Virus record (IMG/VR): IMGVR_UViG_3300043446_003847
Coordinates: 1 to 20,903 of that record
Direction: 5' to 3' (one strand)
Source: a virus
Length of the DNA stretch: 20,903 bases
Below, piece after piece: positions 67 through 15,569 of this stretch. A model generated the notes under the pieces. The model was not told where the DNA came from. It saw only the letters and a list, made by a program, of their open reading frames with translations, and made no database searches. The position numbers were made by a program, and so were the translations under genes. Every line of letters begins with the position of its first letter. Positions within the stretch are counted from its first letter, which is position 1.

Positions 67-513
67 ATGCCGATGCCACGAAGGGACTCCCGACCGACGC
101 AGTCCGCCGAGCTTGAGGCGGACATCGCCGCGCTTGAGGAGCTCGCCGCGAACGCCGAGTCGGACAAGGCTTACAGCCCGGCCGTGACCGCGCGCTCGCG
201 ATTGCCGAGCCTGCGCGCCGAGCTGCACCGACTGCGCGACCTCGAGGTGCTCGTCGCGACCTCGGACCCGCTGGAGCGGATCCGGCGGACGCGAGCGATC
301 GCGGAGCGCGAGGGATCGTGGCAGGCCGTCGCTCGCCTTGCCTCGGTTGAGGCCGACCTCGAGGTGCGCCTCGCGGAGGCCCGTGCTGCCGAGGAGGCCG
401 CGAAGCTATCGAACCTTTCGACCGATGACTTGCTGGAATACATCACCGCCGCAATCGACCAGGTGCCCGCGAACTTGCGGGCCGAGCTGCTCGACCGGCT
501 CATGCCCGCGTGA
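67..513 (+). CDS. terminase small subunit-like protein
   Basis: The 148-residue product directly precedes the large terminase, the usual position of the small subunit, which recognises phage DNA and loads it onto the packaging motor. It is predicted to be almost entirely helical. Residues about 14-30 and 45-60 are rich in Leu, Ala and Glu and could form a coiled coil. A central segment around residues 68-95 (DPLERIRR, then AEREGSWQAVARLA) resembles a segment I know from TerS-like phage proteins. No clear helix-turn-helix is visible, so the assignment rests mainly on position. The ATG at 67 has GGAGGA at 52-57. The stop overlaps the GTG start of terL in a GTGA, so the two should be translationally coupled. 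It could alternatively be an unrelated packaging accessory protein. Confidence 0.6.
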   Translation: MPMPRRDSRPTQSAELEADIAALEELAANAESDKAYSPAVTARSRLPSLRAELHRLRDLEVLVATSDPLERIRRTRAIAEREGSWQAVARLASVEADLEVRLAEARAAEEAAKLSNLSTDDLLEYITAAIDQVPANLRAELLDRLMPA

Positions 514-1991
514 AGAAGCACCGGGCCGGCGACAATCCGGCGCGAGGACAGGACGCTTTCCGCCTGCTCGCGCGTGCTACCGAGCAGCTACGGCGTCGGA
601 CGCAATCGGACCGCTTGTCCGCGATGGACTGGACTCGCCCACAATGGGCGTTCCTCAACGACCCGTCGCGCTTCAAGCTGCTTCGGACCGGCAACCAACT
701 AGGCAAGAGCACGGTCGGGCTTGCCGAATGTGTGATGCACGCGCTCGGCACGCACCCGCACCAGCGGATCAAGCCTCCGATCGAGGTCTGGATCATTTTC
801 GAGTCGCGGCATCAATCGCTGCCGTTGCAGGAGAAGCTGTGGAGGCTGCTGCCGAAAGAGCAGTTGGCGGACGGCCAGCGACCCTATGATCCCATTACCG
901 GCTTCGGGCACCACGAGCCGCTGATTGAGTTCGCCAACGGATCGCGGATCCGAATGAAAACGAACAACCAGGACGGCATCGGCCTAGCCGGCGGCAGCCC
1001 GCACCATATCCTCTTGGACGAGCCACCGAAGCCGCGCGTCCTCGCCGAATGTTTCATGCGGCTTCGCTCGACAGGCGGGACGTTGTCGCTGACTCTGACG
1101 CCGATCAACCGCGACTGCACCGTGCTACGCGAGGAGGTCGACGCAGGCAAGATCGCCGACTTGCATTTCCCGTTCACGGCAGACAACCTGATTCAAGTCC
1201 GTTCCGGGCGACCGCTGACCGACGACGCCGGGATCGTGAAGGACGAGGCGTGGGTTATCGCTCAACGTGCGCTTGCGATGCCGCACGAAGCACCGATCGT
1301 GAACGACGGCGAATGGGACGGCCGCGCCGTCGCTCGCCTGTTTGATGCCTTCCGTGCCGACACAATGGTCGTGGACCATTTGCCGGCCCGCGAGCTCGTC
1401 CTCTGCTTCGGCGTAGACCACGGCACCCAGCGAGGCAACAACGCCGCCGTCCTCGTGGCCGTTGACAAGTCGCGCATCCTCGACGGCTACCCGACGGTCT
1501 ACGTGATGGACGAGGCATGGTCAGACGGGATGACGACGTCGGAGGCCGACGCCGACGCGGCGCTGGGGATGCTGCGCCGCCACGGTCTGACGTGGTCGGA
1601 CATCGACCACGCTTACGGCGACATTCCCGCTGGCGTGCGCGGGTCCGCCGGCCGCAAGGGCAACTATGACCTCATGGACGCGATCGCGCGAAAGACCTCG
1701 GCGCGCGGGCGCCGCAACCTCAAACCGCAGATCCAGATCGCGAAACGCGGCGAGAACGCGGGCGCACAGTCAATCCAGCGTGGCGAGGGCTGGCTCCATC
1801 GGCGCATGGTCGCCGATGCTTTCCGCGTGCATCGTCGGTGCGAGCGGGTGATTGAGGCGATCGAGAAGTACGACGGCCGGCAGGACAGCGAGCACAAGCA
1901 CATCATTGATGCCGTCCGCTACTCGCTCTATGAGTGGATCATCAAGGGCGGTCCGCGCCAGCCCAGCGGCACTCGACTCCGGATCGGTTAG
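510..1991 (+). CDS. terL: terminase large subunit (TerL)
   Basis: This is the ATPase-nuclease that drives DNA into the prohead and cuts it. The 493-residue protein has a Walker A motif GNQLGKST at 61-68, a Walker B motif HHILLDEP at 165-172 with the catalytic Glu at 171, and a coupling motif SLTLTPIN at 193-200. The C-terminal half looks like the RNase H-fold nuclease, with Asp303 (FGVDHG), Asp371 (YGDIPAG) and Asp467 (IIDAVRY) as the likely metal-binding triad. Length is normal for the family. The GTG at 510 overlaps the previous stop and has no strong Shine-Dalgarno, so coupling is likely. An ATG at codon 39 would remove only an unconserved basic N-terminus. The TAG stop at 1989-1991 is followed within two bases by a promoter-like element. 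Confidence 0.95.
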   Translation: MKKHRAGDNPARGQDAFRLLARATEQLRRRTQSDRLSAMDWTRPQWAFLNDPSRFKLLRTGNQLGKSTVGLAECVMHALGTHPHQRIKPPIEVWIIFESRHQSLPLQEKLWRLLPKEQLADGQRPYDPITGFGHHEPLIEFANGSRIRMKTNNQDGIGLAGGSPHHILLDEPPKPRVLAECFMRLRSTGGTLSLTLTPINRDCTVLREEVDAGKIADLHFPFTADNLIQVRSGRPLTDDAGIVKDEAWVIAQRALAMPHEAPIVNDGEWDGRAVARLFDAFRADTMVVDHLPARELVLCFGVDHGTQRGNNAAVLVAVDKSRILDGYPTVYVMDEAWSDGMTTSEADADAALGMLRRHGLTWSDIDHAYGDIPAGVRGSAGRKGNYDLMDAIARKTSARGRRNLKPQIQIAKRGENAGAQSIQRGEGWLHRRMVADAFRVHRRCERVIEAIEKYDGRQDSEHKHIIDAVRYSLYEWIIKGGPRQPSGTRLRIG

Positions 1992-2009
1992 GCGGTATCT
2001 TGTCGAGTA
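1992..2009 (+). promoter_or_regulatory. promoter-like cassette, copy 1, upstream of portal
   Basis: GCGGTATCTTGTC lies directly after the terL stop and differs by one base from the element at three other gene junctions. If TATCTT (1996-2001) is a -10 box, transcription eight bases downstream would begin on the A of the portal ATG (2009). No ribosome binding site lies between the element and the ATG. A -35-like TCGACT with 17-base spacing is present but is not conserved in the other copies. Confidence 0.6.
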
Positions 2010-3457
2010 TGAGCACCCAGCCGTCTGGCCTCGATATGCCGCCTGTCCCGCGCGACCCCTGGGAGGCTCGTCGTTGGACCGAGTCGCGCCGTCGGTGGCG
2101 GATGCTGACGGGCGAATGGTCGGCCGACCTGCAAGAGCGGATCAGGCGCGACCTCGGCAGCGTAAGGTCCGAGGCGATCGGCATCCCCGACCTTTCGAGC
2201 AACGTCCTGCTATCCGTTTCCCGGCAACTTTCGATCCTGCACGACGAGGAGCCGAAGGTCCACCACCTCGATTCCGACGCCGCCGAGCGCGTCTTCGACG
2301 CCATGTGTGACGCGGGCTGGGTGCCGGCCATGCAGACCTTTGTCGCTGACCTCGTCGCGCTCCGTGATGCTCCCATGCGGATCGACGTCGGCGGCGACCC
2401 GTCGAAGCCCGTGCTTCGGTTTCGCCCCATCCGACCCGACCTGTGCCTCGCTTGGTCGAAGGCCGTCGCGCCCGACGTCGCGGTCGGCATCCGTGAGGCG
2501 CGCAAGGGTCGAGACGGTCGATGGTACTGGGAAGTCCTCGACGTCAGCGACCCAGCGAACCCGCGCTACATCGCGGAGGACGCCGACGGCAACGACGTAT
2601 CGACGCTCGTCCTTGGCGGCACTTTCTCGGGTGACGCCTACCCGTACCGCGACGAAAACGGCGATCCGTTCCTCCCTGTGTGGCTGTACCACGCCGCCAA
2701 GCGCCCCTACCTGTGGGACTACGCCAGCGGCATGGAGGTGGTCGAGGGCACCATCCAGGCCGGCGTGGCAATGTCTTTCTGGATGCACACGCTCCGGTCG
2801 GCCTCGTGGCCGCAGCGGTACATGCTTGGCGCGGAGCCTGACGGCGCGGACTACGCGGACGAGAACGGCGACGGTCGTGGACGGCGCGACATTGTCGCGG
2901 ACCCGGCGGCCGTCCTCATCCTGCACCCGATGGACAGCACCCAGGGCGGCGCGCAGATCGGCCAGTGGGAAACCGCCGCCGACGTGGCCGCCACGCTCGA
3001 CGCCGTGATCCGCTACGAGCAGCGCGTTGCGACCTTCGCCGGGATCTCGGCGTCGGACTTCCTTCGCCAGTCGGGTGACGCCCGCTCCGGATACGCGCTG
3101 TCCATCAGCCAGTCCGGCAAGCGTCAGGCCGCGCGCAAACTGGAGCCCACCGTCAAGGAAGGCGACGAGCACGTCGTCGCGATCTGCGCCAAGCTGCTCA
3201 ACCTCTGGAGCAAGCGCGACGGCGGCGCTGGTCTGCGTCTTCCCGAAGACGGCTACGAGGTGGAATACACCTCGCTCCAGCTCACGCCAGAGGAGATCGC
3301 GGCCAAGCGCGAGTCGGTGATCGCGCTGCTCGATCGCGGGCTGATCACGCCCGCCGAGGCGCGCGCCGAGCTGTGCGGCGAGACGGTCGAGGAGGCCGCG
3401 CGGATGCTGGCCGCGAACGCCGATCCGCCCGCCGCGCCCGACACGATGAACGCATGA
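2009..3457 (+). CDS. portal protein
   Basis: The protein (482 residues from the chosen start) would form the dodecameric ring at the capsid vertex through which DNA enters and leaves and to which terminase docks. It has the position, size and composition of a portal: a helical N-terminus (DPWEARRWTESRRRW), a mixed central region, a long helix around WETAADVAATLDAVIRYEQR, then an Ile/Ser/Gln stretch typical of portal stem-crown regions. The C-terminus contains TPEEIAAKRESVIALLDRGL, a helix pair common in portals. The frame is open upstream to an ATG at 1934 inside terL, but those 25 residues look like out-of-frame terL sequence. I therefore start at the ATG at 2009, just after the promoter-like element. 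No Shine-Dalgarno precedes it. Scaffold follows after 12 bases. Confidence 0.85.
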   Translation: MSTQPSGLDMPPVPRDPWEARRWTESRRRWRMLTGEWSADLQERIRRDLGSVRSEAIGIPDLSSNVLLSVSRQLSILHDEEPKVHHLDSDAAERVFDAMCDAGWVPAMQTFVADLVALRDAPMRIDVGGDPSKPVLRFRPIRPDLCLAWSKAVAPDVAVGIREARKGRDGRWYWEVLDVSDPANPRYIAEDADGNDVSTLVLGGTFSGDAYPYRDENGDPFLPVWLYHAAKRPYLWDYASGMEVVEGTIQAGVAMSFWMHTLRSASWPQRYMLGAEPDGADYADENGDGRGRRDIVADPAAVLILHPMDSTQGGAQIGQWETAADVAATLDAVIRYEQRVATFAGISASDFLRQSGDARSGYALSISQSGKRQAARKLEPTVKEGDEHVVAICAKLLNLWSKRDGGAGLRLPEDGYEVEYTSLQLTPEEIAAKRESVIALLDRGLITPAEARAELCGETVEEAARMLAANADPPAAPDTMNA

Positions 3458-3469
3458 TCGGAGGACACG

Positions 3470-4078
3470 TTGAGCGACACCACGGAGCCGGCCGTCGCGC
3501 CGGTCGAGACGCCGCCGCCCGCCACGCCCGCGACGACCGCCGCACCGGCTGACGACGGCAAGGGCCCGGTTCCCTATTCGCGCTTCGACGAGGTCCGACG
3601 CGAGCGCGACGACTGGCGCACCCGCGCCGAGTCCGCAAGCAAGGTTGAGGCCGACCTCGTGGCCGCGCGCGAATCATTCGCCAAACTGCAAGCCGAGCTC
3701 GATGCCGAGCGCTCGGCCCGCGCCGACGACCGAGCTTTCGCCGCCGTCGGGCTGCTTGATTCCGACGCCCAGGACGTCGCTCGCCTGCTCTACGGCAAGG
3801 TCTCCGAGAAGCCCGAGGGAGGCCTTGCGGCGTGGCTTGCTGCCGCGACCGAGAAGCCCGACGCCGCCCCGATGCCGCTGCGCCCCTACCTGTCGCAGCC
3901 CGCGAAGCCCCCGAAGCCCGCGCCGATGGATACTTCGGATCCGACCGGCGCCGCTCGCGTGGTGACCGGCGACGTCACGGCCGAGCAGCTCCGCGCCGCT
4001 CGAGAGGTCGGTCGCACCACCGGCGACTGGTCGCAGTTCGACCGGCTGAAAAGCGCGACGGTCGGCCGGCGTCGGTGA
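3470..4078 (+). CDS. capsid scaffolding protein
   Basis: The 202-residue protein sits between portal and major capsid, where scaffolds are found. Scaffolds template prohead assembly and then leave. The N-terminus (about 1-32) is a Pro/Ala/Thr-rich disordered tail. Residues about 38-85 form a charged predicted coiled coil (EVRRERDDWRTRAESASK and onward). The C-terminus is basic and helical, ending KSATVGRRR, which suits the capsid-binding end of a scaffold. The start is TTG at 3470, supported by GGAGGA at 3460-3465 with short spacing; no ATG or GTG lies nearby in frame. No serine protease motif is visible, so a protease-scaffold fusion is unlikely. Confidence 0.75.
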   Translation: MSDTTEPAVAPVETPPPATPATTAAPADDGKGPVPYSRFDEVRRERDDWRTRAESASKVEADLVAARESFAKLQAELDAERSARADDRAFAAVGLLDSDAQDVARLLYGKVSEKPEGGLAAWLAAATEKPDAAPMPLRPYLSQPAKPPKPAPMDTSDPTGAARVVTGDVTAEQLRAAREVGRTTGDWSQFDRLKSATVGRRR

Positions 4079-4080
4079 GA

Positions 4081-4104
4081 CCGGTATCCGGTCGGTGGAG
4101 CTAC
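4081..4104 (+). promoter_or_regulatory. promoter-like cassette, copy 2, upstream of major capsid
   Basis: CCGGTATCCGGTC follows the scaffold stop by two bases and differs by one base (G for T in the last -10 position) from the consensus element. It is followed by GGTGGAGCTAC, an apparent ribosome binding site with no start codon next to it. The eight bases GGAGCTAC recur at 4186-4193, where they serve the capsid ATG at 4195. Predicted transcription from about 4097 gives a leader of about 98 bases. Confidence 0.5.
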
Positions 4105-4194
4105 GGACTCGGCCACGGGCACGCGCCCCGATACCACCGCGACAGGCCCCATCGTCCGCGAGCCTAGCCGCTTGCAACAAACAATGGAGCTACA
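4105..4194 (+). promoter_or_regulatory. leader region of the major capsid gene
   Basis: This gap has no convincing open reading frame. It ends in an A-rich, probably unstructured stretch (TTGCAACAAACAATGGAGC) carrying GGAG at 4186-4189, five bases before the capsid ATG. It contains GATACC at 4130-4135, complementary to GGTATC at 4083-4088, and a small GGGC-ACGC-GCCC hairpin. An out-of-frame ATG at 4184 overlaps the ribosome binding site. A structured leader before the most abundant virion protein is plausible but unproven. Confidence 0.35.
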
Positions 4195-5118
4195 ATGGCG
4201 AACGAGACCACCTACTCCGCTCTCGCGGACTCCCGCGCTACCGAGATCCTCATCGGCACCTGGGAGCAGCTGCTCGCCGAGCGCGGGCCCCTGCCCTCGC
4301 ATCCCGCGATTCTCAAGGCCCCCGACGTCGCTGGCCTCGGTTCCAGCAAGGTCCGTGTCAGCGCCGCGGCGCTCGACGGCTACACGCTGCTTTCGTCCAC
4401 CTCGGACGGCTCGGCCGTCTCGAACACCACGCTCGTGGACGAGAAGTACGAGGTCACGGTCGCCCGGTACTCGAAGACCTACGCGCCGACCGACCTCGCG
4501 CTCCTGACCGATCCGGGCAAGGGCCTCAACTTCGAGCGTTTCGCGACGGACGCGTTCATTTCCGCGCAGCAGACGCTGGTCAACCTCGTCGCGGCCCTCT
4601 CGACCGGGTTCTCCTCGTCGGTCGGCACGTCGGGCAGCAACCTGACGCTGGCGCAGTTCCTTGAGGCGAAGGCCACGCTGGAGATCGCGAACGCCGCCGA
4701 CAGCGGTTTGATCGCGATCCTGCACCCGCGCCAGTGGAACGACCTCATCCAGGACGCCGCGCTGACCATCAGCGCCGGTGCCGCGCAGTACGACCCGGCG
4801 AACGCCGCCGTGACCAAGATCACGGGCGGTTCGTTCAAGGGCACGTTCCACGGCGTCGACGTCTACGTGTCCAGCCGCGTCCCGACGGCGAACAGCGCCG
4901 CCGACCGCGCCGGCATGATGCTCGGCCGCAACGCGATCGTCTACGCCGAGGGCTCGGCTCCCGTGCTCGACCCCGCGAACCAGATGGCGATCGGTCCCGT
5001 GCTGTTCGAGCGCAGCCGCAACGCGCAGTCGGGCCTCTGGAACTGGACGACCCACTACTACGTGGGTGTCGCCGAGATGTTCGACGCGGCCGGCGTCGGC
5101 ATCGTCACCGACGCCTGA
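4195..5118 (+). CDS. major capsid protein (HK97-type, inferred)
   Basis: The 307-residue protein builds the icosahedral shell. Evidence is its place after the scaffold and its family-like sequence. The N-terminal region (about 20-110) has alternating Val/Thr/Ser strands. A long helix (about 118-140, FERFATDAFISAQQTLVNL) resembles the HK97 spine helix. LIAILHPRQWNDL (about 173-185) resembles the conserved segment preceding the A domain. The C-terminal strands include GVDVYVSSRVP and WNWTTHYYVGVAEM. There is no long N-terminal delta domain, in agreement with the separate scaffold. The ATG at 4195 has GGAG five bases upstream. A strong GC-rich hairpin follows the stop. Confidence 0.85.
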   Translation: MANETTYSALADSRATEILIGTWEQLLAERGPLPSHPAILKAPDVAGLGSSKVRVSAAALDGYTLLSSTSDGSAVSNTTLVDEKYEVTVARYSKTYAPTDLALLTDPGKGLNFERFATDAFISAQQTLVNLVAALSTGFSSSVGTSGSNLTLAQFLEAKATLEIANAADSGLIAILHPRQWNDLIQDAALTISAGAAQYDPANAAVTKITGGSFKGTFHGVDVYVSSRVPTANSAADRAGMMLGRNAIVYAEGSAPVLDPANQMAIGPVLFERSRNAQSGLWNWTTHYYVGVAEMFDAAGVGIVTDA

Positions 5119-5126
5119 TTCACCAC

Positions 5127-5151
5127 GGGGGCCCTCCGAGCGAGGGCCCCC
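5127..5151 (+). terminator. GC-rich hairpin after the major capsid gene
   Basis: A perfect 10-bp stem, GGGGGCCCTC and GAGGGCCCCC, closes a 5-base loop (CGAGC) eight bases after the capsid stop. No T-run follows, so it may attenuate read-through or protect the capsid mRNA 3' end rather than terminate fully. A second small hairpin (GGGG-GGCT-CCCC, 5176-5187) followed by TTT lies just before the next ribosome binding site. Confidence 0.6.
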
Positions 5152-5204
5152 ACGTCCTCCGGGTGGATCGTCGCCGGGGGGCTCCCCTTTGAGGAGGACA
5201 GTCA

Positions 5205-5909
5205 ATGCCAGTCAAGCCGAAGGCCGAGAAGCTCGCAGATCCGACTAGCGCGATCGCGCCCGTCTCGACCCCCGACGCCGAGCTTGTGGACCTCGGTGGC
5301 GACGTTCACCATGCGGTGGACGTCTTTCCGAAGCTGGACCCGACCCCGCCGTTTCTGCTTGCGTACCATCCCCAGCGGTGGGCCGTGGTCGAAGGCTACT
5401 GCGTCCCGGCGCTTGCAACCGTCGTCGTGGAACCTGGCGTCAACAACGTCGAGAATCTGACCCGCAACGGCCGCACCTCGCCCGACTGGACCGCTGCGGC
5501 CAAGCTGCACACGACCAAGGGCGCGACGATCATCCCGCACGCCAAGGGCCCCGGTGGCCGGTCGTACATGCAGCGGGTCCAGGTGCGACACGGGCATCAC
5601 CACATGCCGGTGTTCGCGACCGCGCACCGTGGCTCCGACGAGGTCACCGTCAACGGCAAGGGCTACTCCGAATGGCTTGAAAGCCTGTTCGATGACGGCA
5701 CGCTTGCGCCGCCGCCGCCCTACGTGCTTCGGAATCTCCGGGCCAAGTACGAGCAGGAGCGGGCCACGTATGCCGACCGGGCCTACAACCAGCCTTCGGC
5801 GCTCCCGTTCGTCAAGAAGGCCGAGGCCGCTCTCGCCGCAATCGACAAGGTGATCGCCAAGTTCGGCGGCGGCGAGGCCGTGGCCGGCGAATCGGTCGGG
5901 CTCGACTAA
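5205..5909 (+). CDS. unrecognised protein between capsid and connector genes
   Basis: I do not recognise the 234-residue product. It starts at an ATG at 5205 with a strong GAGGAGGA seven bases upstream, so it is probably well expressed. Its N-terminus (1-30) is charged and Pro-rich. The middle contains several hydrophobic strands (FLLAYHPQRWAVVEG, ATVVVEPGVNNV) and a His-rich patch (RHGHHHMPVF, about 128-137). The C-terminal third is helical with a run of prolines (APPPPYVLRNLRAKYEQERA). Position suggests a head-associated structural or assembly protein. Neither a decoration protein nor a head-completion factor can be shown. It ends in a TAATG overlap with the next gene. Confidence 0.6.
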   Translation: MPVKPKAEKLADPTSAIAPVSTPDAELVDLGGDVHHAVDVFPKLDPTPPFLLAYHPQRWAVVEGYCVPALATVVVEPGVNNVENLTRNGRTSPDWTAAAKLHTTKGATIIPHAKGPGGRSYMQRVQVRHGHHHMPVFATAHRGSDEVTVNGKGYSEWLESLFDDGTLAPPPPYVLRNLRAKYEQERATYADRAYNQPSALPFVKKAEAALAAIDKVIAKFGGGEAVAGESVGLD

Positions 5910-6670
5910 TGGCAAGCGATCGCGTTTCAACGCAAGTCTCCGTGCGTTTCGCGCTCCCGTACATCGTGGAGCGCGGAGCCACGACGAGACTCGTGTTGGC
6001 CGGCGCGATGCTTGACAATGGTCAGTCTCCGTTCACGTCGTGCAAGGTGTCCGTCTACGACCCATCCGGAAACGCGATTGTCTCCGAGGCATCGGCCACC
6101 TTCACGCAGGGCGTGACGTTCAGCGCCGGCTACGACTGGACGCCCGCCGCGACCCTCGCGCTCGGCGGCGGGTACACGGTCGAATGGAAGGCGATCGTGA
6201 CCGGCGGCGAGTACGCCACGTACCGCAACGACGCGATGGTCGTCCGCCGCTCTATGGGCTGCCCGATTGCGTCGGCCGACCTTTACTCGGTGATGTCGTC
6301 GCTCAATCCTTCCGGCCCGAAGCCGATCCACGGGCTTTCGACGCTGGACGTTTACGTGTCCGAAGCGTGGACCCGCATCCAGCGCCGACTCATCGAGCAG
6401 GGCAACCGGCCAAACCTGATTCTGTCGCCGTCCGCGCTTCACGACGCGGCCGTGCTGCTGTCGCTTGCGCTCGTGTTCGAGGACTTTTCCACGCGACTCA
6501 ATGCGGCTTACATGGAGCAGGCCCGCATGTACCGCGAGCAGTACGAGACGGCGTGGAATCGCCTGTCGTTCTCCTATGCCGACCTTGACGGCACCACCGC
6601 AAGCCCGAACCGCCGCCGAGGCGCGACTAGCGCGGTGTTCCTCGGCACCTCGCGCTGGCCGACCGGATGA
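5909..6670 (+). CDS. head-tail connector/adaptor-like protein with N-terminal beta domain
   Basis: The 253-residue protein looks bipartite. Residues about 10-112 form a strand-rich domain (TRLVLAGAMLDN, CKVSVYDPSGNAI, GGYTVEWKAIVTGG) with an immunoglobulin-like pattern. Residues about 118-253 are helical and include LYSVMSSLNP, the amphipathic VYVSEAWTRIQRRLIEQG, and a distal YMEQARMYREQYETAWNRL followed by a basic Arg-rich tail and a hydrophobic end. That C-terminal pattern is typical of phage head-tail adaptors that sit under the portal. The gene order fits: it follows the capsid genes and precedes the tail terminator-like gene. The ATG overlaps the preceding stop (TAATG), and the stop overlaps the next ATG (ATGA). 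Function is inferred from position and secondary-structure pattern. Confidence 0.55.
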   Translation: MASDRVSTQVSVRFALPYIVERGATTRLVLAGAMLDNGQSPFTSCKVSVYDPSGNAIVSEASATFTQGVTFSAGYDWTPAATLALGGGYTVEWKAIVTGGEYATYRNDAMVVRRSMGCPIASADLYSVMSSLNPSGPKPIHGLSTLDVYVSEAWTRIQRRLIEQGNRPNLILSPSALHDAAVLLSLALVFEDFSTRLNAAYMEQARMYREQYETAWNRLSFSYADLDGTTASPNRRRGATSAVFLGTSRWPTG

Positions 6671-7125
6671 TCTCCGATATTCGGTTTGCCGTCTCCGACG
6701 CGATCGCGACCGCGTTTACGATCCGCGAGTCGCCCTGGATTTCCGACGGCCCGTTTCGCGATCCGTCGGTGTCGCAGAACGGAGCCTTCGCGGTGACGGT
6801 GCCGCGTACCGACGTGGTCGAGAATCGCCGAGCACGGGCAAACGGCGACGGCATCGTGTGCAAGTCCTCTATCCGCGTTCGCGTGCTGCTGCTGATGCGC
6901 GGTGACGCTGCGGTCGAGGACTACGTCACGGCGCTAGATTTTGCGGCGGCGCTCGCCGGCGTCGTTGGGGCGGTCAAGTCGGACGCGGTGGACCACAGCC
7001 AGCTCGCCCTACAGTCGCTGACCTACGACCCGATCGGCGACGACACGGCAATCCTCGTGACCGGCGAATGGACCGTAATGCATCAGCTGTTCGTCTATCC
7101 GCACGATTACACGCCGCCCGAATAG
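6667..7125 (+). CDS. tail terminator-like / head-tail joining protein
   Basis: The 152-residue protein immediately precedes the tail tube gene, the standard place of the tail terminator that caps the tube and joins tail to head. It begins with a short helix (MISDIRFAVSDAIAT). It continues with strands such as FAVTVPRTDVVEN and IRVRVLLLMRG, then a central helix (AVEDYVTALDFAAALAGVV), and ends in strands (ILVTGEWTVMHQLFVYP). That alpha-beta order matches the terminator/neck fold. It is coupled to the previous gene through ATGA. The TAG stop is followed after two bases by the promoter-like cassette that starts the tail tube unit. No catalytic motif is visible. Confidence 0.55.
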   Translation: MISDIRFAVSDAIATAFTIRESPWISDGPFRDPSVSQNGAFAVTVPRTDVVENRRARANGDGIVCKSSIRVRVLLLMRGDAAVEDYVTALDFAAALAGVVGAVKSDAVDHSQLALQSLTYDPIGDDTAILVTGEWTVMHQLFVYPHDYTPPE

Positions 7126-7148
7126 GCGGTATCCTGTCCGCATAGAGG
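7126..7148 (+). promoter_or_regulatory. promoter-like cassette, copy 3, upstream of tail tube
   Basis: GCGGTATCCTGTC lies directly after the preceding stop, then two free bases, CAT, one base and GAGG (7145-7148), with the ATG at 7155. TATCCT (7130-7135) fits a TANNNT -10 box. The conserved C-A at 7141-7142 would be the -1/+1 step, leaving a leader of about 13 bases that is mostly ribosome binding site. TTACAC (7107-7112) has 17-base spacing but is not conserved in other copies. Confidence 0.7.
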
Positions 7149-7154
7149 TTCCCC

Positions 7155-7676
7155 ATGGCCCTGTCCAACGTCGTCAAGATCGCTTCGGATGCCGGTACCT
7201 ACGTCCTCGCGGACGGCACTGGCACGCCGCTGACGCACACGGTGAAGTTCGACTCGGCCGACCTGACCATCAGCGGAATCCAGCAGGCGCTGAAGGAAAC
7301 CAAGGCGTACCAGTCGCGCGGCAAGTTCGTGTCGCTCCGCAAGGGCCAGCGTGCCCCGGTCCAGTTCTCGTTCTCTTACATGCAGAGCGACCTCTCGGAA
7401 TCGAGCAGCGGCACCACGCTCGATTTCATCTTCGGCAAGGGCGCGCACTCGGCTCGCGTGACCACGGGCCGCATCGGTGGCGACGTCGTCACGCTTGATT
7501 TTACCGTGACCTTCGAGGGCACGTCCTACGGTGACAGCGCCGACCAGACGATCAAGATGCAGGACTGCGAGTTCAGCGTCACCGTCACCGAGGGCGACCC
7601 GAACTCGATCAAGCTCGACGCCGTCTGCTACGGCGACGTCTACATCAACGGCAGCAACTGGTTCGACGTCAACTGA
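7155..7676 (+). CDS. major tail tube protein
   Basis: The 173-residue protein would polymerise into the tail tube. It is strand-rich throughout (THTVKFDSADLTISGI, PVQFSFSYMQSDL, VTLDFTVTFEGTSYG, CEFSVTVTEGD) with the small Gly/Ser/Thr loops of tube proteins and the usual size of about 150-200 residues. The segment around residues 72-85, a polar turn, could be the oligomerisation loop. It stands between the tail terminator-like gene and the assembly chaperones and is driven by its own promoter-like cassette, as expected for a protein made in many copies. The ATG at 7155 has GAGG six bases upstream. Confidence 0.75.
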   Translation: MALSNVVKIASDAGTYVLADGTGTPLTHTVKFDSADLTISGIQQALKETKAYQSRGKFVSLRKGQRAPVQFSFSYMQSDLSESSSGTTLDFIFGKGAHSARVTTGRIGGDVVTLDFTVTFEGTSYGDSADQTIKMQDCEFSVTVTEGDPNSIKLDAVCYGDVYINGSNWFDVN

Positions 7677-7693
7677 CGCCGTCCGGAGGACAA

Positions 7694-8056
7694 ATGCCCA
7701 TCGTGACCCTTGGCGGTCGTGAGCACACGCTCACGCTGCCGTCGTCGTATGCCGTCCGCTGGGAGGTCGCGGCACTCGCGCACGTCAGCGTCATTCGCGC
7801 GCGGTCCGCTGCCCTCGCGCTGACGATCCCAGGTGGCGAGCGCGGCTACAAAATGCCTGCCCTGTCGCGCTGCGGTTTCTCGGTCGCGGTATACGGGGGC
7901 GAGGCCTTCGACGCGCTGACCGCTGCCGGTATCGCGCTCGATGACATTCTCGCGCAGGGCGAAATCGCGCTCGACTACCTCACCGACGGGCTGGTCACGG
8001 CCAAAGACGTGGACGCTGCGGAGGATTTCTCCGGGGCCCCGGTCGATCCGACGTAG
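7694..8056 (+). CDS. tail assembly chaperone, short form (gpG-like)
   Basis: The 120-residue product is the unshifted form of the tail assembly chaperone, which keeps the tape measure soluble while the tube polymerises around it. It starts at an ATG with GGAGGA at 7685-7690. It has a strand-rich N-terminus (PIVTLGGREHTLTLP) followed by helices, including ALDDILAQGEIALDYL, and ends in an acidic tail (DAAEDFSGAPVDPT). Identification rests on position between tail tube and tape measure and on the overlapping -1 reading frame downstream, which has no start codon of its own. Sequence similarity to known G proteins cannot be judged by eye. Confidence 0.7.
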   Translation: MPIVTLGGREHTLTLPSSYAVRWEVAALAHVSVIRARSAALALTIPGGERGYKMPALSRCGFSVAVYGGEAFDALTAAGIALDDILAQGEIALDYLTDGLVTAKDVDAAEDFSGAPVDPT

Positions 8057-8280
8057 CCGTCCTCGCGCTTGAGCTGGGCGAGGGCTCGCCGTCCGTCATC
8101 GGCGAGGGGATCCATCGGGGCCAGTCCGGAATCGGGTACGGCCGTTTCTCGTCGTTGCCGTTGGACGAGCAGGCCCGTTTGCTGGCGTATCTGCGAATCA
8201 AGGCAGACCCGGACGGCAAGCACCGAAAGCTGTCCCCAGCCGACGGCCTGCGCCGGCTGACGTCGCGCCCGCAGACCTGA
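7694..8280 (+). CDS. tail assembly chaperone, -1 frameshift product (gpGT-like)
   Basis: Frame -1 relative to the short form is open from 7945 to its TGA at 8278-8280 and contains no ATG, GTG or TTG before about 8153. It nevertheless encodes a natural-looking, well-biased sequence (AVLALELGEGSPSVIGEG, then GYGRFSSLPLDEQARLLAYL). The simplest reading is a programmed -1 frameshift in the 7945-8053 overlap, giving a fusion of about 195 residues as in many long-tailed phages. No classical XXXYYYZ heptamer is in register. Candidates are TTC at 8027, which can re-pair as TTT, and the GGGGCCCC run at 8033-8040. The exact slip site is unresolved. Confidence 0.75.
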
Positions 8281-8282
8281 CG

Positions 8283-8304
8283 CGGTATCCTGTCCTCGTG
8301 GAGG
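8283..8304 (+). promoter_or_regulatory. promoter-like cassette, copy 4, upstream of neck-like gene
   Basis: CGGTATCCTGTC begins three bases after the chaperone stop, followed by two free bases, CGT, one base and GAGG (8301-8304), exactly as in copies 3 and 5. TATCCT occupies 8286-8291, and the predicted start is G8298. The GTG start codon is at 8309. No recognisable -35 box is present at 15-19 bases. Confidence 0.7.
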
Positions 8305-8308
8305 CAGC

Positions 8309-8896
8309 GTGCTCGACGCAAAGGTCACCGGCGACCTCGACGCATGGGCACGCGCCGCTAGCCGGGCTGCAATCGAAGCCACGCGCGAGCTCGTGGGCGG
8401 AATCACGAGCGAGGTCTACAACGCCGCCAAGTCGGCATGGCCCGTGCGACCAAAGGAGATGGTGGCCGACCATCCTCGCGGCTACTCGCGTTCGCGGCTC
8501 GGCGATTCGGTGCGACTTGAGGGCGACGGGACGACGGTTGGCCGCATCGCGAACGATGCCAACTACGCCTACATGATCAAGAGCCGTAGGGTCGAGGTTC
8601 CGGCCGGGTCACAGTACGAGGCCGCATGGGGCCGTAAGATGCTGTCGCTGCTTGAGCAGCAGCAGCGGATCCAAGCGTCGGGCGGCATTTACACGAGGTC
8701 GCAGTCGGGCAAGTCCGCCCTGACCACGAAGCGGTACCGCGCGAACCAACGCAAGATCCGCCAGCACGCCGCGCGAGCCAGGGACGCCAAGCACGTCTGG
8801 ACGCTCCTCGTGCGCGAGCCGATGGAGCGTAAGTCCGCTAATCTGCGCGAGCAGCTGGCGGCGGCGGTCGTCAAGGCCGTCGAGGGCGTAGGCTGA
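8309..8896 (+). CDS. neck/tail-completion-like protein (HK97 gp10-like, tentative)
   Basis: The 195-residue basic protein begins at GTG 8309, four bases after GGAGG. Its N-terminal helix (AWARAASRAAIEATRELVGG) is followed by WPVRPKEM, a Gly/Asp loop (EGDGTTVGRIANDANYAYMIKSR) and a long basic helical region. The 'helix, then tyrosine-rich turn ending in YAYMI' pattern resembles gp10-type tail-completion proteins. However, those usually lie before the tail tube, whereas this gene is between the chaperones and the tape measure. The alternative is a tape-measure-associated factor. It is coupled to the tape measure gene by an ATG overlapping its TGA. Confidence 0.45.
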   Translation: MLDAKVTGDLDAWARAASRAAIEATRELVGGITSEVYNAAKSAWPVRPKEMVADHPRGYSRSRLGDSVRLEGDGTTVGRIANDANYAYMIKSRRVEVPAGSQYEAAWGRKMLSLLEQQQRIQASGGIYTRSQSGKSALTTKRYRANQRKIRQHAARARDAKHVWTLLVREPMERKSANLREQLAAAVVKAVEGVG

Positions 8897-10503
8897 TGCC
8901 GAGCAGCACGATCGACATTGAGATCCGCGCAAGGACCGAGGCGCTTACTGCGGAACTCGCCAAGGCCGGCAATCTTTCGCAGAAGCAGGCCGACAAGATT
9001 GCAAAGGAGTTTGTCAAGGCTGGAAAAGAGGCCGAGAAGGCGAACGTAAAAGCAGCGGATTCAACCGAAAAGCATTGGGCTGGCGCAGCAAAGAAGGTAG
9101 CTAGCGCGCTCGGCGAAGGAACGATCCCGAAGTTTGAGAAGCTGTCCGGAATCGCCGAATCGTTCGGCGTTATGTCCGGTGCGTCCGCGTTGAAGGTCGC
9201 CGGCCTGACGCTCGGTATTGCCGCGCTTGCAACTGGCGCGATGAAGCTCGGCGGCACGGTTATTGATACCGCCCGCAATATCGACACGCTGTCGCAATCG
9301 CTTACGGAGCAGCAGCGAGGCGCGCTTGCGGACGAAATCAAGGCGCTTCGTGACGTCCAAGACGAACTGACCGGACTCGACCAAGCCGCAACGGCCGCGC
9401 AGATCAAGCTGTCCGCAGCGTTCGCGACGTCTGGACTTGCGGAGAATCTGGCGTTCGTTATCGACCGCGCATCGACGGGTCTCGCGTTCCTGCTTTCCGC
9501 TGGCGGTCAAGTTCCCAACGCACCGTCGCAGACGGCGGGAAAGACGGTAAAGCAGTTTAGCGTAAACGACCTCGCGGCATCGATCGGTATGCCCTCCGCG
9601 CCAGCCGCTGGAACGGCTGTCGCAAAGGCCGCATCCGGAAGGACGACGTCCCCAAGCGGCACGCGCGCCGAGGCCGAGCGCCAGAAGGAGGCAGAGAGGG
9701 AGATCCAGCAGTTCATGCTGGATTATTACCTCAATGCCGACAAGGAGCGAGAGGACGCGCGGCTGAAAGAGGCCGAGGAGGAGCAACGCCTCCGCGACGA
9801 GGGCCTCGCTGCCGAGAAGGAGTACCGCGACCAGCAGACCGCGCTCGCCAAGGAAGCGGCCGACAAGCAGCTTGAGCACGCCCAACGCGTCAGGGAAGGC
9901 AGCAAGCAGACCGCGTCTAACGTCGGATCCTTCGTCGGCGGCATCAGCGACCTTGTTTCGACGCTGTACGAGCAGGCCGCCGACAACGCCGAGGAAGGCA
10001 GCGTCCGCGAGAAGAAGGCGCGGCGCACGGCGTTCGCCGTCGCGAAAGCTGCCGCAATCGCGCAGGCGGCTATCAATACCGCGTTGGCCGTGTCGCAGGC
10101 CCTGACGATGGTGTTTCCGCTCAACTACATCAACGCCGCAATCGTTGGCGCGCTCGGTGCGGCCGAGGTCGGCGTCATCGCTGCAAAGCAAATGCCGACG
10201 GCGCACTCTGGCGGTATGGTCGGCAGCGTCTCGACCGCGCCCGACGAGCAGCCGATCATGGCCCTTCGCGGCGAGGCGGTGCTGTCGCGTCAAGCGGTGC
10301 AAGACCTCGGCGGCGAGCAGGCCGTCAGCAGCGCGAATCGACGTACAAGCAGCAGCGACGGCATGGTAGGGACGTTCGCGATGGTTTACGAGCATCGCTC
10401 TTACGACGCCTTCATGGCCCGCGACCTTCGCCGGCCGACGGGCGCGGTGCGTCAGGCGATCCGTGGCTCCGGTAACGCTGGCTTGATCAAGAGGTCCGGC
10501 TGA
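8896..10503 (+). CDS. tail tape measure protein
   Basis: This 535-residue protein sets tail length and can help form the DNA channel. The N-terminal 70 residues are a Lys/Ala/Glu-rich coiled coil, then a hydrophobic segment follows (about 95-118, ASALKVAGLTLGIAALATGA). A long charged helical region occupies about 255-335 (EAEREIQQFMLDYYLN, KEREDARLKEAEEEQ). A second hydrophobic region spans about 375-430. The C-terminus carries the pattern AHSGGMVGSV, DEQPIMALRGEAVLSRQAV and LGGEQA, which is characteristic of phage tape measures. It is short for the family, implying a tail of roughly 80 nm on the usual 1.5 Å per residue rule. Much of the coding sequence looks more A-rich than its neighbours. 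Confidence 0.85.
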   Translation: MPSSTIDIEIRARTEALTAELAKAGNLSQKQADKIAKEFVKAGKEAEKANVKAADSTEKHWAGAAKKVASALGEGTIPKFEKLSGIAESFGVMSGASALKVAGLTLGIAALATGAMKLGGTVIDTARNIDTLSQSLTEQQRGALADEIKALRDVQDELTGLDQAATAAQIKLSAAFATSGLAENLAFVIDRASTGLAFLLSAGGQVPNAPSQTAGKTVKQFSVNDLAASIGMPSAPAAGTAVAKAASGRTTSPSGTRAEAERQKEAEREIQQFMLDYYLNADKEREDARLKEAEEEQRLRDEGLAAEKEYRDQQTALAKEAADKQLEHAQRVREGSKQTASNVGSFVGGISDLVSTLYEQAADNAEEGSVREKKARRTAFAVAKAAAIAQAAINTALAVSQALTMVFPLNYINAAIVGALGAAEVGVIAAKQMPTAHSGGMVGSVSTAPDEQPIMALRGEAVLSRQAVQDLGGEQAVSSANRRTSSSDGMVGTFAMVYEHRSYDAFMARDLRRPTGAVRQAIRGSGNAGLIKRSG

Positions 10504-13500
10504 TGACGACGGTGATTCGACCGGCCTTCCAGGGCCTTTGCATCCCTGACCCGCGCGCCGTTCTCGGCCCCACCATCGCGGCGGACACGGCTGGCATCCA
10601 TGCGGGTCAGCCCGTGCCGTCGGCCGCGACGAGGCTCTCGCTCGTCAGCGATTACCGGGCGCGCGATGCAACGGACAAGTTCATCCAGATCGAAACGAAG
10701 ACTGGCGGGATGCCGGTCGCCGGCCTGTCGAATCGACCCGCGTCGTTCCTGTGGAAGCGCGACGACGAGGACGATACCGCGTGGCGCGGCTGGCAAGGCT
10801 GGCAGATCCTCCAGCGCGTGGACAAGGTCCACGTCGAGGGCGCGGGGAACACCTTCAATCGGCCGTGCGTGGCGACGACGCCGAGCGGCATCGTCTGTGC
10901 CGTCGAGTCCAAGGTTGCCGGCACCTATGGCTACACCATCACTCGCGCACCGCTGGACGGAGGCGACCTCGTCGCGGTGACGTCCATCGCTGGCAAGGCC
11001 CGGCGGTCCGGCTACCGTGGCTGCTGCGCCCTGGCCTATATGTCCGACGGCCGGCTGATGCTGTATGCGGCGCAGACCCGGTCCACGGCCGCGACCGCGA
11101 ACACGATCATCTCCGCGTGGTCGAGCGATGACGACGGCTCGACGTGGTCGCTCGTCGCCGAAAACGTCATCCCGATGGAGCTGGACGACGCCGACGAGGT
11201 GCGCCGCATCCGGGTCGCCGAGCGCAACGGTCAGGCGTTGATGATCGTCCATGCAAAGAACACGTCGCGCTCGCACAACGCCGACTACCTCGTGCAAATG
11301 GCGTCCTCGGACGGCGGCTTTTCGTTCTCGTTCGTCGGCGCGATCCCGGACGAGGCGAATCACGGCGGCGGCTTTCCGGACGTAATGGCCTCGACGGACG
11401 GCTTCTTCGTGGCGTGGATTGACCTCCATAGCCATTACCCGCTGTTCGTCTCGCTCGGCTCGGCGTTCCATGACCTGACCACGTCAGCGGCCGTGCAGGT
11501 CAGCACGACCGAGGTTGCGAGCGACAGCGGCAGCCCGAAGGCGTTTGGTATGGGTGGTCTCGCGACGTGCGAGACCGACGACGGCAGTTTTGTCGTCTAT
11601 GCTTGCAACTTCGGCACGGGCGGCGTGGATACCTTGTGCTGCGTAAGCACCGACCGAGGGCTGACGTGGCTCCCTCGAGGCGAGTGGTGGGGCAAGCCCG
11701 CCGCGTACTGGGGCAACGCAAATCCAGGCAACCCGGCGTGTGCAGCCGTGTCCGGACACGTCCTGCTCGTGGCCGGCGACATTCCCGTCACCAGCACCGC
11801 GGACGAGTCGGTGACGGCGTACACGCTTGGCGGGTACACGAATCTTACGGCGGCGTCGAGTCAGAGCCAAATGGATGCCACGCGCCAGATCAATCCGAAC
11901 GTCTACGGCGGCTGGCTCCCGCTCGACAAGCCCGAGGATTACGGGTGGACTGCGACCGACGACGCATCGATCACGGCGACCTACTCGTCGGGCCGATTCG
12001 TGGTTTCGTCCTCCGCGGCCACGCAGGACTATCGGCGTGTGCTTGCGACAGGCGAGGCGGTCGGCACCGCGACGATCACGGCGCGCACGGGAGAGGCCCC
12101 CATCTCGCGCGGCGGATCGTCCACCTACGCGGGCCCGGCTTACGTCGAGGTGCTTACGGGCGACAACACGACGACGTACACAAGGTGCCGCGCTAGCATT
12201 GATAGCGCCGGTATCCATTACGCCCGATGGAGCGGGACCGCATGGACCGACACCGCGTCCGAGCTTGTCACGCTGAACGGCTCGTCGGAGATCCGCCTCG
12301 ACGTCGCGCAGGGGAAGGCTCGCGTCTGGTACCGTGACGCGACGACGGGCATCGATCAGCCGTGGGTGCTTGCCCATGACAAAACGCCCGCCGCCGTGTC
12401 GGCTGCGGTGACGTCCTACCATGCTTTCGGCGGGCAGCTCGACAGCGGCGATCAGGTCTCGTGGGTGTCCGTGTTTTGCGGCGAGGAGGTCCTCACGACC
12501 TACACGGCGAAGGAGGACGCTTTCGCACGGCCGTTCTCCGCTCGCTCGATCGAGGTCGCGGACAACGTGGCCGTAGCTGCTCGCGGTGGACCGACGATCC
12601 CAGGGGACTCGTGGACGGTCGGATTCGCGTTCGAGTGGCCCCGCGAAAATCTCGTCACGCCGAGTCCACGTCAGGCTTGGCGCTCGTGCGACACCGACGA
12701 CCAGCCGTCCTACATCACGCATGAGTGGACGCTGTCGGACGGAACCGATTCGGCGTTGTTCCACGGCACGGCGATCGCGATTCCGCTGATTGAGCATAAC
12801 GTCCCATTTATCGTGCTCGGCGCCAAGCGAAACGGGTCGTGGACCGATTACAACGTGGACCTCGGCATTACCGCTGTGGGTTTCGAGCGCACCGGCAACG
12901 TCGTCACCGCGCCGCGCAGCACGGGCCATGACGGCAGTTTCGCGGGCGTCGTCCGCGAGCACGAGTTCGCGGGCGGGACTTGGTATGCGGCCCCCGGTGC
13001 GGTCGGTCGCCGCATCATCGGCAACAGCGGAGGAACGTGGAGCCGGACGACCACCGGCCCGCAGCCACGTTTGATCCTTGAGGACGTGGACGACGTCGCC
13101 GACGCCGACGAGGGCGCGACCGGCATCATTGTCCCGCCGCAGGCCGTCATCATCGGGCCGACCTCGCAGTCGTACACGATCGACGCGATGCGGATCAAGA
13201 TCCCGAAGCCCGACGGTACCACCTATTGCGAGCCACCGGATCGGACGTGGAAGATCGGGTACGCGACCTTCTGCCGGCTGCTGGCGCATGGCGACGAGTA
13301 CGATTGGGGCCGCATCATCGAAACCGAGTCCCCGACGGAGACAACCGACCTCCCCGGAAACGTGCGCCGCACGCGCGTCACCGGCCCGGCTCGTCGCAAG
13401 GTGTCGTTCTCATGGAGCGACGGCCCGGTCGATACGTCGATGTCGGACCCAACGTCCTTCTCGACCTCGGGTTGGTCGCCGTCGTACACGGCAGGGCCTA

Positions 13501-13745
13501 TGGGCACGATCGGCTCGACCGCATGGCAGGTGGACGCGCTGCCCCGGCTGCTTGATGGAGCCGACGTCCCCGTGCTCTATATTCCTCGCGTTGCGTTCTC
13601 ATCCGCGATCGGCGTCCTCAACCGCCGCCATGAGCTCGTACACATGCGGGTCACGTCGCCGGTCCGCCTCGAGACCGTGCAGGGCACCGAGGGCGTGGAC
13701 GAGGTCATCCGAATCGCGACGGTCACGGGCGAGGAGGAGGTATGA
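10503..13745 (+). CDS. large tail-tip protein with Asp-box (sialidase/BNR-like) repeats
   Basis: The 1080-residue product lies directly after the tape measure, where distal tail and receptor-binding proteins are encoded. Three segments match the Asp-box pattern S-x-D-x-G-x-[ST]-[WF]: residues 208-215 (SDDDGSTW), 268-275 (SSDGGFSF) and 382-389 (STDRGLTW). Asp boxes mark blades of sialidase-type beta-propellers, so residues of roughly 100-440 are probably such a propeller, for glycan binding or cleavage. I could not locate the full sialidase active site by eye. Residues about 465-660 are beta-rich and could be a lectin-like jelly roll. The C-terminal third (about 680-1080) is also strand-rich and may dock onto the tail hub. 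Its ATG overlaps the tape measure stop, and its TGA overlaps the next ATG. Confidence 0.75.
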   Translation: MTTVIRPAFQGLCIPDPRAVLGPTIAADTAGIHAGQPVPSAATRLSLVSDYRARDATDKFIQIETKTGGMPVAGLSNRPASFLWKRDDEDDTAWRGWQGWQILQRVDKVHVEGAGNTFNRPCVATTPSGIVCAVESKVAGTYGYTITRAPLDGGDLVAVTSIAGKARRSGYRGCCALAYMSDGRLMLYAAQTRSTAATANTIISAWSSDDDGSTWSLVAENVIPMELDDADEVRRIRVAERNGQALMIVHAKNTSRSHNADYLVQMASSDGGFSFSFVGAIPDEANHGGGFPDVMASTDGFFVAWIDLHSHYPLFVSLGSAFHDLTTSAAVQVSTTEVASDSGSPKAFGMGGLATCETDDGSFVVYACNFGTGGVDTLCCVSTDRGLTWLPRGEWWGKPAAYWGNANPGNPACAAVSGHVLLVAGDIPVTSTADESVTAYTLGGYTNLTAASSQSQMDATRQINPNVYGGWLPLDKPEDYGWTATDDASITATYSSGRFVVSSSAATQDYRRVLATGEAVGTATITARTGEAPISRGGSSTYAGPAYVEVLTGDNTTTYTRCRASIDSAGIHYARWSGTAWTDTASELVTLNGSSEIRLDVAQGKARVWYRDATTGIDQPWVLAHDKTPAAVSAAVTSYHAFGGQLDSGDQVSWVSVFCGEEVLTTYTAKEDAFARPFSARSIEVADNVAVAARGGPTIPGDSWTVGFAFEWPRENLVTPSPRQAWRSCDTDDQPSYITHEWTLSDGTDSALFHGTAIAIPLIEHNVPFIVLGAKRNGSWTDYNVDLGITAVGFERTGNVVTAPRSTGHDGSFAGVVREHEFAGGTWYAAPGAVGRRIIGNSGGTWSRTTTGPQPRLILEDVDDVADADEGATGIIVPPQAVIIGPTSQSYTIDAMRIKIPKPDGTTYCEPPDRTWKIGYATFCRLLAHGDEYDWGRIIETESPTETTDLPGNVRRTRVTGPARRKVSFSWSDGPVDTSMSDPTSFSTSGWSPSYTAGPMGTIGSTAWQVDALPRLLDGADVPVLYIPRVAFSSAIGVLNRRHELVHMRVTSPVRLETVQGTEGVDEVIRIATVTGEEEV

Positions 13746-15547
13746 TTGCGGCCGGGATCTACGGCTCCGACGTCGGCCGCTTCCCTCGCCCTGGTGACGG
13801 CGGCTGGCGCTGGCTTGTGTCGGTGCGCTACGCGGGCCGGGTCATCCGCTGGGGCGACGGCGACCTGTCGGCAATCGAGCTTGACGGGTCGTTGTTCGCG
13901 GTCAACCTCGACAGCGACCTATCCAATATCTCGGTAACGGATGCGATTCCGGTCGGCGCGGTCGGTGTCGCGCCCCGCTCGCTGTCGTTCTCGGTTTACA
14001 TGCCAGCCGGGATCGACGTCGCGCTGAACGAGCGGCGCGGGATCATGTTCTCGGGCTCCGAGGTCGAGGTCGCGCTGGTGCCCGACGGCGGGACGCTGTC
14101 GGACCGGTGCGTCGTCCTGCGCGGGTTTGCCTCCGAGCCGACCTACGGGACGACCGATGACCCGGTGTCGTTCACGGCACGCGAGCCGGAGTCCTACAAC
14201 GACGGAATCTACCCGCCGGATGCCGCGCGAAACGTCGTGGCGCTCGAACTGCTCGGCATCTCCAACAATGGCAAATGGTATCAGGCCGAGGTGCCGTGGT
14301 TTGCCGCGCCCGATACCGACAACGGGGATGCCGACAAGCTGGTCCAAATCGGTCAGGTCTGGCCGCGCGTGTTCGGCGCGCCGGGCGCGATCACGCTGTC
14401 CACCGTCAACGGCTACAGGTCCGACCGACCGGGGACGCGCGCGATCCCGGTCTCGCAAATGGAGTCGGCGCATTGGGGCGAGGACGACCTGCGCTTGATT
14501 TGGACGGCGCTGCTCATCTCCTACGAGCACGTCCCGCAGCCGGAAACGACGAACGTCACGCTCCTTCGGTACGACAGCGAGTATCCGAACGGCACGATCC
14601 GCCTGTCGCTTCCGACCCGGCTCGGACTTGACCACCGAGGGATCCCGTTTACCTGCGTCCGATACGACGACGTCCTTGCAATTCCGGGCGCGTTCCTTCC
14701 GAAGACCGGCATGGACGCGCACGAGCTGCTCCTTATGTCGGACTGGTGCGTAGCATGGGGCGCATACGATGGGCACTCCAACGGGCCGAACGTGGACGGC
14801 ACCCCGGCTCCGTCGGCCGCAAACGTCCTGTCGTGGATGATCGAGCGGTCCTCGCTGGTCTGGGACGTCGGCCGGTCAAAGTCCGCGACCGACCACCTTC
14901 GACCCTACCTGCTGGCCGGCGCGATCGAGGACACGACGCGCCCGCTCGACTGGCTGTCGGACCACGTATTCGGCACGCTGCCTGTGTTCCTCGCGTCCGG
15001 GCCGCTCGGCTTGTATGCGGTTCCGGTGCCATATCAGAGTCAGTTCGCGGTGCCGGTGTCGGCGATCGTTGTTGACGGCTGGTCCGCGGTGCTCCCCCGG
15101 CAGGCCGTCCAGGTCGAGACCGACGAGCGCGCGACGAAGGTTGCGGTAAGCTGGTGTCGGGACGCATCGAACGGGGCCTACTTCAAGCGCGCTTTCCGTC
15201 TCAATGGCGACGACCAGACGCGATCCGCTGGCGACTCCCCCTACTACGAGACGACGATACCGACAGAGGAAACGGCCGAGCGCGTGGTGTCGGTTGACCT
15301 GCCCTACGTGTGGGACGACCAGACCGCCTATCGCGTCCTCGACTGGCTCGCGTGGCGCGAAATGAAGCAGCGCCGCACGATCGCGGTGGACGTCGATCCG
15401 TCCGTGCACGGCTGGCTGTCGGTCGGCGACGTCGTGACCTTCACGTCCGACGCGCTGCACCTGCAAGCCGCCAAGTGCATGGTCGTCAGCATCACCCGCT
15501 CGTCCGCTCTATGGTGGCGGTGCAAGGTCATGCCGCTGGACGATTGA
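13742..15547 (+). CDS. tail hub / distal tail protein (gpJ/gp27-like C-terminus)
   Basis: The 601-residue protein begins at an ATG with GAGGAGG just upstream, inside an ATGA overlap. The N-terminal 150 residues are strand-rich. The C-terminal 90 residues have the arrangement I associate with tail hub proteins: VSVDLPYVWDD, a helix with TAYRVLDWLAWREMKQRR, then TIAVDVDPSVHGWLSVGDVVTFTS, and final strands ending in WWRCKVMPL. In hub families this 'helix, strand, LxxGDVV' block is part of the ring that closes the tube. The middle contains Trp-rich segments of unknown role. It probably pairs with the Asp-box protein to form the tail tip. No lytic transglycosylase or peptidase motif was seen. The TGA is followed by a promoter-like cassette. 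Confidence 0.65.
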   Translation: MIAAGIYGSDVGRFPRPGDGGWRWLVSVRYAGRVIRWGDGDLSAIELDGSLFAVNLDSDLSNISVTDAIPVGAVGVAPRSLSFSVYMPAGIDVALNERRGIMFSGSEVEVALVPDGGTLSDRCVVLRGFASEPTYGTTDDPVSFTAREPESYNDGIYPPDAARNVVALELLGISNNGKWYQAEVPWFAAPDTDNGDADKLVQIGQVWPRVFGAPGAITLSTVNGYRSDRPGTRAIPVSQMESAHWGEDDLRLIWTALLISYEHVPQPETTNVTLLRYDSEYPNGTIRLSLPTRLGLDHRGIPFTCVRYDDVLAIPGAFLPKTGMDAHELLLMSDWCVAWGAYDGHSNGPNVDGTPAPSAANVLSWMIERSSLVWDVGRSKSATDHLRPYLLAGAIEDTTRPLDWLSDHVFGTLPVFLASGPLGLYAVPVPYQSQFAVPVSAIVVDGWSAVLPRQAVQVETDERATKVAVSWCRDASNGAYFKRAFRLNGDDQTRSAGDSPYYETTIPTEETAERVVSVDLPYVWDDQTAYRVLDWLAWREMKQRRTIAVDVDPSVHGWLSVGDVVTFTSDALHLQAAKCMVVSITRSSALWWRCKVMPLDD

Positions 15548-15569
15548 CGGTATCCTGTCGGCATTGAGG
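15548..15569 (+). promoter_or_regulatory. promoter-like cassette, copy 5, upstream of small tail gene
   Basis: CGGTATCCTGTC begins immediately after the hub-gene stop, followed by two free bases, CAT, one base and GAGG (15566-15569), with the ATG at 15575. TATCCT occupies 15551-15556, and the predicted start is A15563. Element, initiator and ribosome binding site keep the same spacing as in copies 3 and 4. No -35 box is recognisable. Confidence 0.7.

Follow-up and report, generated by a model that had tools for sequence, protein, structure and literature searches.

The late operon of this uncultured bacterial virus carries a short motif, CGGTATCCTGTC, at five of its gene junctions, and the sites of a related virus, the comparison of mismatches between and within the two genomes, and the placement of the copies together with a matrix scan indicate that it is almost certainly a real, functional and co-evolving cis-element. 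The explanation to which we incline, with moderate confidence, is that the five copies are late promoters of one element each, with no -35 box, at which a phage-specific factor would direct a start about 7 bases downstream; judged from the sequence, they are most likely promoters rather than repressor sites. The window, that is the whole stretch of DNA analysed, comprises 20,903 bp with 68% G+C and represents its IMG/VR record in full; the early region is absent from it.

The late operon opens with a terminase small subunit gene, assigned by position only, followed by the genes for the terminase large subunit and the portal, the gene at 3470 and the capsid gene. After the capsid come three genes, a putative tail tube, the tail-assembly chaperones, the gene at 8309, the tape measure, tail genes and lysis (Table 1). 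The family search for the putative tube protein returned no match, and its predicted structure (pLDDT 36, alignment depth too low) gave no usable model. The chaperone region (7694-8280) comprises a short frame, 7694-8056, and a second open frame that stops at 8278-8280; near 8035, the stretch GGGGCCCC is conserved. The chaperones are likely made via a -1 programmed frameshift. Further downstream, the gene at 18349-19590 matches a PHROG DNA repair exonuclease family, and the C-terminal half of its product is ~36% identical to proteins of three Pseudomonas phages.

Table 1. Positions of the motif copies, late genes and untranslated features in the window.
Feature	Position	Strand	Remarks
Terminase large subunit gene	510..1991	+	phrog_5653 (1e-11), phrog_2; Terminase_6N; stop 1989-1991
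Motif copy 1, CGGTATCTTGTC	1993..2004	+	Between terminase large subunit stop (1989-1991) and portal ATG (2009); counterpart L008:1992
Portal gene	2009..3457	+	phrog_104 (3e-9); start codon conserved in L008
Motif copy 2, CGGTATCCGGTC	4082..4093	+	3 bases past the stop of 3470-4078; capsid ATG 113 bases on; counterpart L008:4086
Capsid untranslated leader	4094..4194	+	~100 bases; 36 bases at 4115-4150 match L008 at 97% identity (80% overall)
Major capsid protein gene	4195..5118	+	phrog_267 (4.3e-8)
G+C-rich hairpin, 10 bp	5127..5151	+	Downstream of the capsid gene; also conserved in L008; resembles a terminator, no T tract
Motif copy 3, exact	7127..7138	+	Precedes the putative major tail protein gene; counterpart L008:7119
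Putative major tail (tube) protein gene	7155..7676	+	Assigned by position/synteny only
Motif copy 4, exact	8283..8294	+	Follows the frameshifted chaperone frame (stop 8278-8280) and precedes gene 8309; counterpart L008:8274
Gene 8309	8309..8896	+	Between tail-assembly chaperones and tape measure; 56% identical in L008
Tape measure gene	8896-10503		
Tail gene	13742-15547	+	Stop directly before motif copy 5
Motif copy 5, exact	15548..15559	+	Adjoins the stop of 13742-15547 and precedes gene 15575; beyond L008 coverage
Gene 15575	15575..16129	+	Downstream of motif copy 5

Three copies are exact (7127, 8283, 15548) and two differ by one mismatch (1993, 4082), at the positions given by an earlier, sequence-only reading of this DNA. 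All five are on the + strand and none is inside a gene. As had been claimed, they directly follow stop codons, with measured gaps of 1, 3, 1, 2 and 0 bases for copies 1 to 5. The motif is sharply defined, with high column information at positions 0-11 and values near background upstream, and its A+T-rich core stands out in composition from the surrounding DNA. The sole upstream exception is an all-T column at -20, which is missing in the related virus; consequently, the earlier statement that no -35 element is conserved upstream of the copies holds. A scan for sigma-70 consensus promoters (-10/-35 pairs) returned none anywhere in the 20 kb. The register described for the exact copies (two bases, CRT, one base, GAGG) was found in all three, with GAGG at a fixed 6 bases from the motif. 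In contrast, the notion of a fixed cassette of promoter plus ribosome-binding site had to be abandoned, as the first base of the motif lies 16, 113, 28, 26 and 27 bases from the start codon in copies 1 to 5 and the portal lacks a well-placed Shine-Dalgarno sequence.

Word counts give five copies (up to one mismatch) against 0.086 expected under an order-3 Markov model (P ~2e-6), and the motif family ranks first of 20,708 12-mers by over-representation in the record. We rejected raw over-representation as proof because GC-rich words repeat equally often, three exact copies of a 12-mer being common among them, and because significance after correction for all words is marginal (~0.04). It is position, rather than word count, that makes a non-chance origin decisive: all five copies start no more than 4 bases past the stop of a late gene, and such positions make up 0.46% of the record, which corresponds to a placement probability of ~2e-12 as a naive estimate assuming independence. 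When the record was scanned with a matrix, the five sites scored 18.6-21.4 and the next best 12.4, and there are therefore no copies in genes; many such copies had been named in the sequence-only reading as evidence that would speak against its proposal. The site scoring 12.4 is a weak sixth copy, CGGCATCCTGTT, at 16170-16181, which would be upstream of the gene annotated from 16149 if a downstream GTG is the true start of that gene. This site, with two mismatches, was not accepted.

The only close relative found, L008 (IMGVR_UViG_3300032288_002474, 12,434 bp), is collinear with the first 12 kb of the window, with ~80% DNA identity over 67-8440. The motif CGGTATCCTGTC is absent from L008. However, CGGTAT occurs exactly four times on its + strand. 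These four sites are at the orthologues of the junctions that hold copies 1-4, and all of them read CGGTATTTAC. The left half, CGGTAT, is thus identical in nine of nine copies, five from the window and four from L008. The right six bases differ between orthologous sites at 5, 5, 6 and 6 positions (mean 5.5 of 6), whereas copies within one genome differ on average at 1.0 of 6. Because only one relative was found, the evidence for this concerted switch, the strongest result of the analysis, comes from one genome pair with four shared sites. Within that pair, the switch speaks against an origin by chance or drift and against a generic promoter of the host, and the concerted rewriting points to a trans-acting factor that would read the site: four junctions were rewritten to the same new spelling, unlike the outcome of independent drift, so that a sequence-specific factor presumably changed and its sites followed. 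The earlier proposal of a regulatory element for a phage-specific factor, subdividing the late operon, gains support from the uniform motif that L008 carries, in a spelling of its own, at these junctions.

The two genomes also coincide at their ends. The window and L008, assembled independently, share their first base, 66 bp ahead of the first gene of the operon (the putative terminase small subunit gene), and the sequence of positions 1-66 is conserved between them. Because two independently assembled contigs start at the same base, the shared start suggests a physical, cos-like genome end and not a random contig end.

Relatives were sought by terminase, capsid and portal, and this search recovered a single contig (L008, its part L006, and L015, which is the same contig in opposite orientation) together with L007. 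The terminase of L007 is 26% identical and its junctions have no repeated 9-mer in common. The motif plus GAGG had no match in a scan of viral contigs, and scanning genome contigs with the motif gave three matches in unrelated contexts, a number equal to chance expectation. Single copies of the L008 motif in six other contigs, one in each, were taken as chance. Among 50,697 phage records, the capsid, portal and tape measure had no tblastn match and the terminase had weak matches only. The absence of any capsid, portal or tape-measure match implies that this phage lineage is essentially unsampled in that collection.

The junctions upstream of the portal and capsid genes deserve separate description. 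The portal ATG lies 4 bases past motif copy 1, where transcripts would start, and the arrangement is the same in L008. No properly spaced Shine-Dalgarno sequence was found for the portal gene in the window or in L008 (anti-SD duplex table), and a leaderless start of the portal mRNA is possible. The L008 gene at 8291 has an in-frame ATG 17 bases from the motif, the same distance as in the portal. A C-R step follows the element by 6 bases in the window and by 6-8 in L008; it is a weak signal. The fixed spacing previously proposed for this step applies to the exact copies, but the step is absent from copies 1 and 2 at that spacing. The capsid gene is bracketed by the motif and a conserved leader on one side and a conserved hairpin on the other. 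As the hairpin lacks a T tract, termination there is uncertain, and it is missing from the output of a scan for T-tract terminators. The untranslated stretches beside the capsid gene, 4115-4150 and 5127-5151, are more conserved than most coding DNA.

We propose that the five copies act as internal late promoters of the single-element, -35-less kind. Their reader would be a phage-encoded or phage-directed factor, either a sigma factor, a sigma-appropriating activator or a phage RNA polymerase, which would recognise the whole 10-12 base DNA element (CGGTAT plus CCTGTC). Transcription would begin ~7 bases downstream at the C-R or a similar step, with predicted RNA starts at about 7142 (copy 3), 8298 (copy 4) and 15563 (copy 5). 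Such starts would produce very short leaders with a GAGG Shine-Dalgarno sequence for the major tail protein, gene 8309 and gene 15575, a leaderless mRNA for the portal and the ~100-base conserved leader for the capsid. In L008, the right-half specificity of the factor would have changed and all sites would have followed. Action on transcription initiation, the start points and a phage-encoded factor are all three inferred. Among the genes of the 20.9 kb record, from which the early region is absent, none was recognised as coding for a sigma factor, an RNA polymerase or an activator.

Could the copies instead be ordinary housekeeping promoters of the host, with TAnnnT as their -10 box? TATCCT and TATCTT fit this consensus, with a start 6-7 bases downstream, and the sequence-only reading had noted that TATCCT fits a -10 box. 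An ordinary -10 box is not supported, because the aligned hexamer is TATTTA in every L008 copy, without the essential last T; in addition, copy 2 of the window has TATCCG, the conserved block extends over 10-12 bases, beyond TAnnnT, and a shared host factor would leave the concerted switch unexplained. We regard this interpretation as very improbable. Hardly credible is an origin by chance, or as short recombination or boundary sequences at module joints: the marginal word count after correction would allow for chance, but all five copies are at junctions and a parallel family occupies the same junctions in L008, and homology that promotes exchange should stay the same between relatives, not switch.

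The main rival, which we consider less likely, is that the motif is a stoperator or operator, an asymmetric 12-13 bp site for the phage's immunity repressor that would block late-gene elongation or initiation in a lysogen; heteroimmune relatives would then have differently spelled sites. Stoperators of the L5 type are 13-bp asymmetric sites located in short intergenic spaces and oriented with transcription (PMC9283540); from one related phage to another, the consensus changes along with the repressor (PMC6550527). In their asymmetry, length of 12-13 bp, single orientation, short intergenic placement and divergent consensus, the stoperators of cluster A phages (L5, Bxb1) do resemble the motif (PMC9283540, PMC6550527). 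They differ from it in sequence and in number, with 20-30 sites genome-wide against five in 20.9 kb, and the motif is restricted, within the record, to the structural operon; the lysis region has no site, and neither does the neighbourhood of the - strand genes at 20 kb. A repressor site would also leave unexplained the promoter-like C-R spacing and the portal ATG that stands, without a Shine-Dalgarno sequence, at the expected start. In the record, which lacks the early region, neither a repressor nor an integrase was seen. An element acting at the RNA level, in translation initiation or mRNA processing, appears quite improbable. Three copies do lie a fixed 6 bases before GAGG, and the start-associated sequences (SAS) of cluster K mycobacteriophages are repeated 13-mers just upstream of gene starts, mostly in one orientation, with an associated ESAS consensus that differs between subclusters (PMC3203893, PMC12699233). 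However, SAS hug the start codon and are mostly outside the structural module, whereas the motif is confined to that module and its distance to the start codon ranges from 16 to 113 bases, which makes a start-associated sequence unlikely. The motif also differs in sequence from the SAS consensus GGGATAGGAGCCC (up to 2 mismatches, directly before the start codon). The nine copies share no common fold and have no Rfam match, a tRNA search found none, and junctions with a strong Shine-Dalgarno sequence and no motif exist at 7677-7693 and 3458-3469.

Thus, late promoters read by a phage-specific factor are the reading that we retain. More tentatively, the element may belong to an undescribed phage transcription system, in which one bipartite element would drive internal late promoters, including that of a leaderless portal mRNA, and in which the factor would have changed half of its specificity, and all sites their spelling together, between phages that have ~80% of their late DNA in common; the phage collection contains no sequenced relatives of this lineage. 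Should the sites be promoters, exact RNA starts follow from them, and they would provide a small, portable pair of late promoter and factor for high-G+C bacteria.

Late promoters of T4, TATAAATA, also lack a -35 box, and internal late promoters precede its structural genes; the class III promoters of T7 are internal and late as well, and a promoter and a terminator bracket the T7 capsid gene. The motif has no sequence match to either type and differs from them in length and base composition, and neither a gp55-like protein nor a single-subunit polymerase was detected in the record. The order of promoter, leader, capsid gene and hairpin is nevertheless reminiscent of phi10-gene 10-T-phi, as generally known from T7.

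A closer parallel is offered by phiEco32. Its late promoters have one element only, tAATGTAtA, lack a -35 and initiate 6-8 bp downstream (PMC8948821). The phiEco32 relative 7-11 has a different consensus (GTAAtg-16-aCTA) at similar genome positions; middle and late promoters of phiEco32 depend on gp36, and late promoters of 7-11 on gp47 (PMC8948821). The window likewise has a repeated short single element before late gene groups, with no copy in genes and no -35, and its relative carries a different consensus at similar positions. phiEco32 and 7-11 are enterobacterial podoviruses with a known sigma gene, whereas the window has 68% G+C, a siphovirus-like gene order and a factor that is predicted. 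The two genomes offer an unusually clean example of a concerted change of specificity. The window and L008, at 80% DNA identity, are far closer than phiEco32 and 7-11, and their two motif sets form a natural before-and-after pair of a regulator changing together with all its sites: one half of the site is unchanged in every copy and the other rewritten, in phages that can be aligned base by base.
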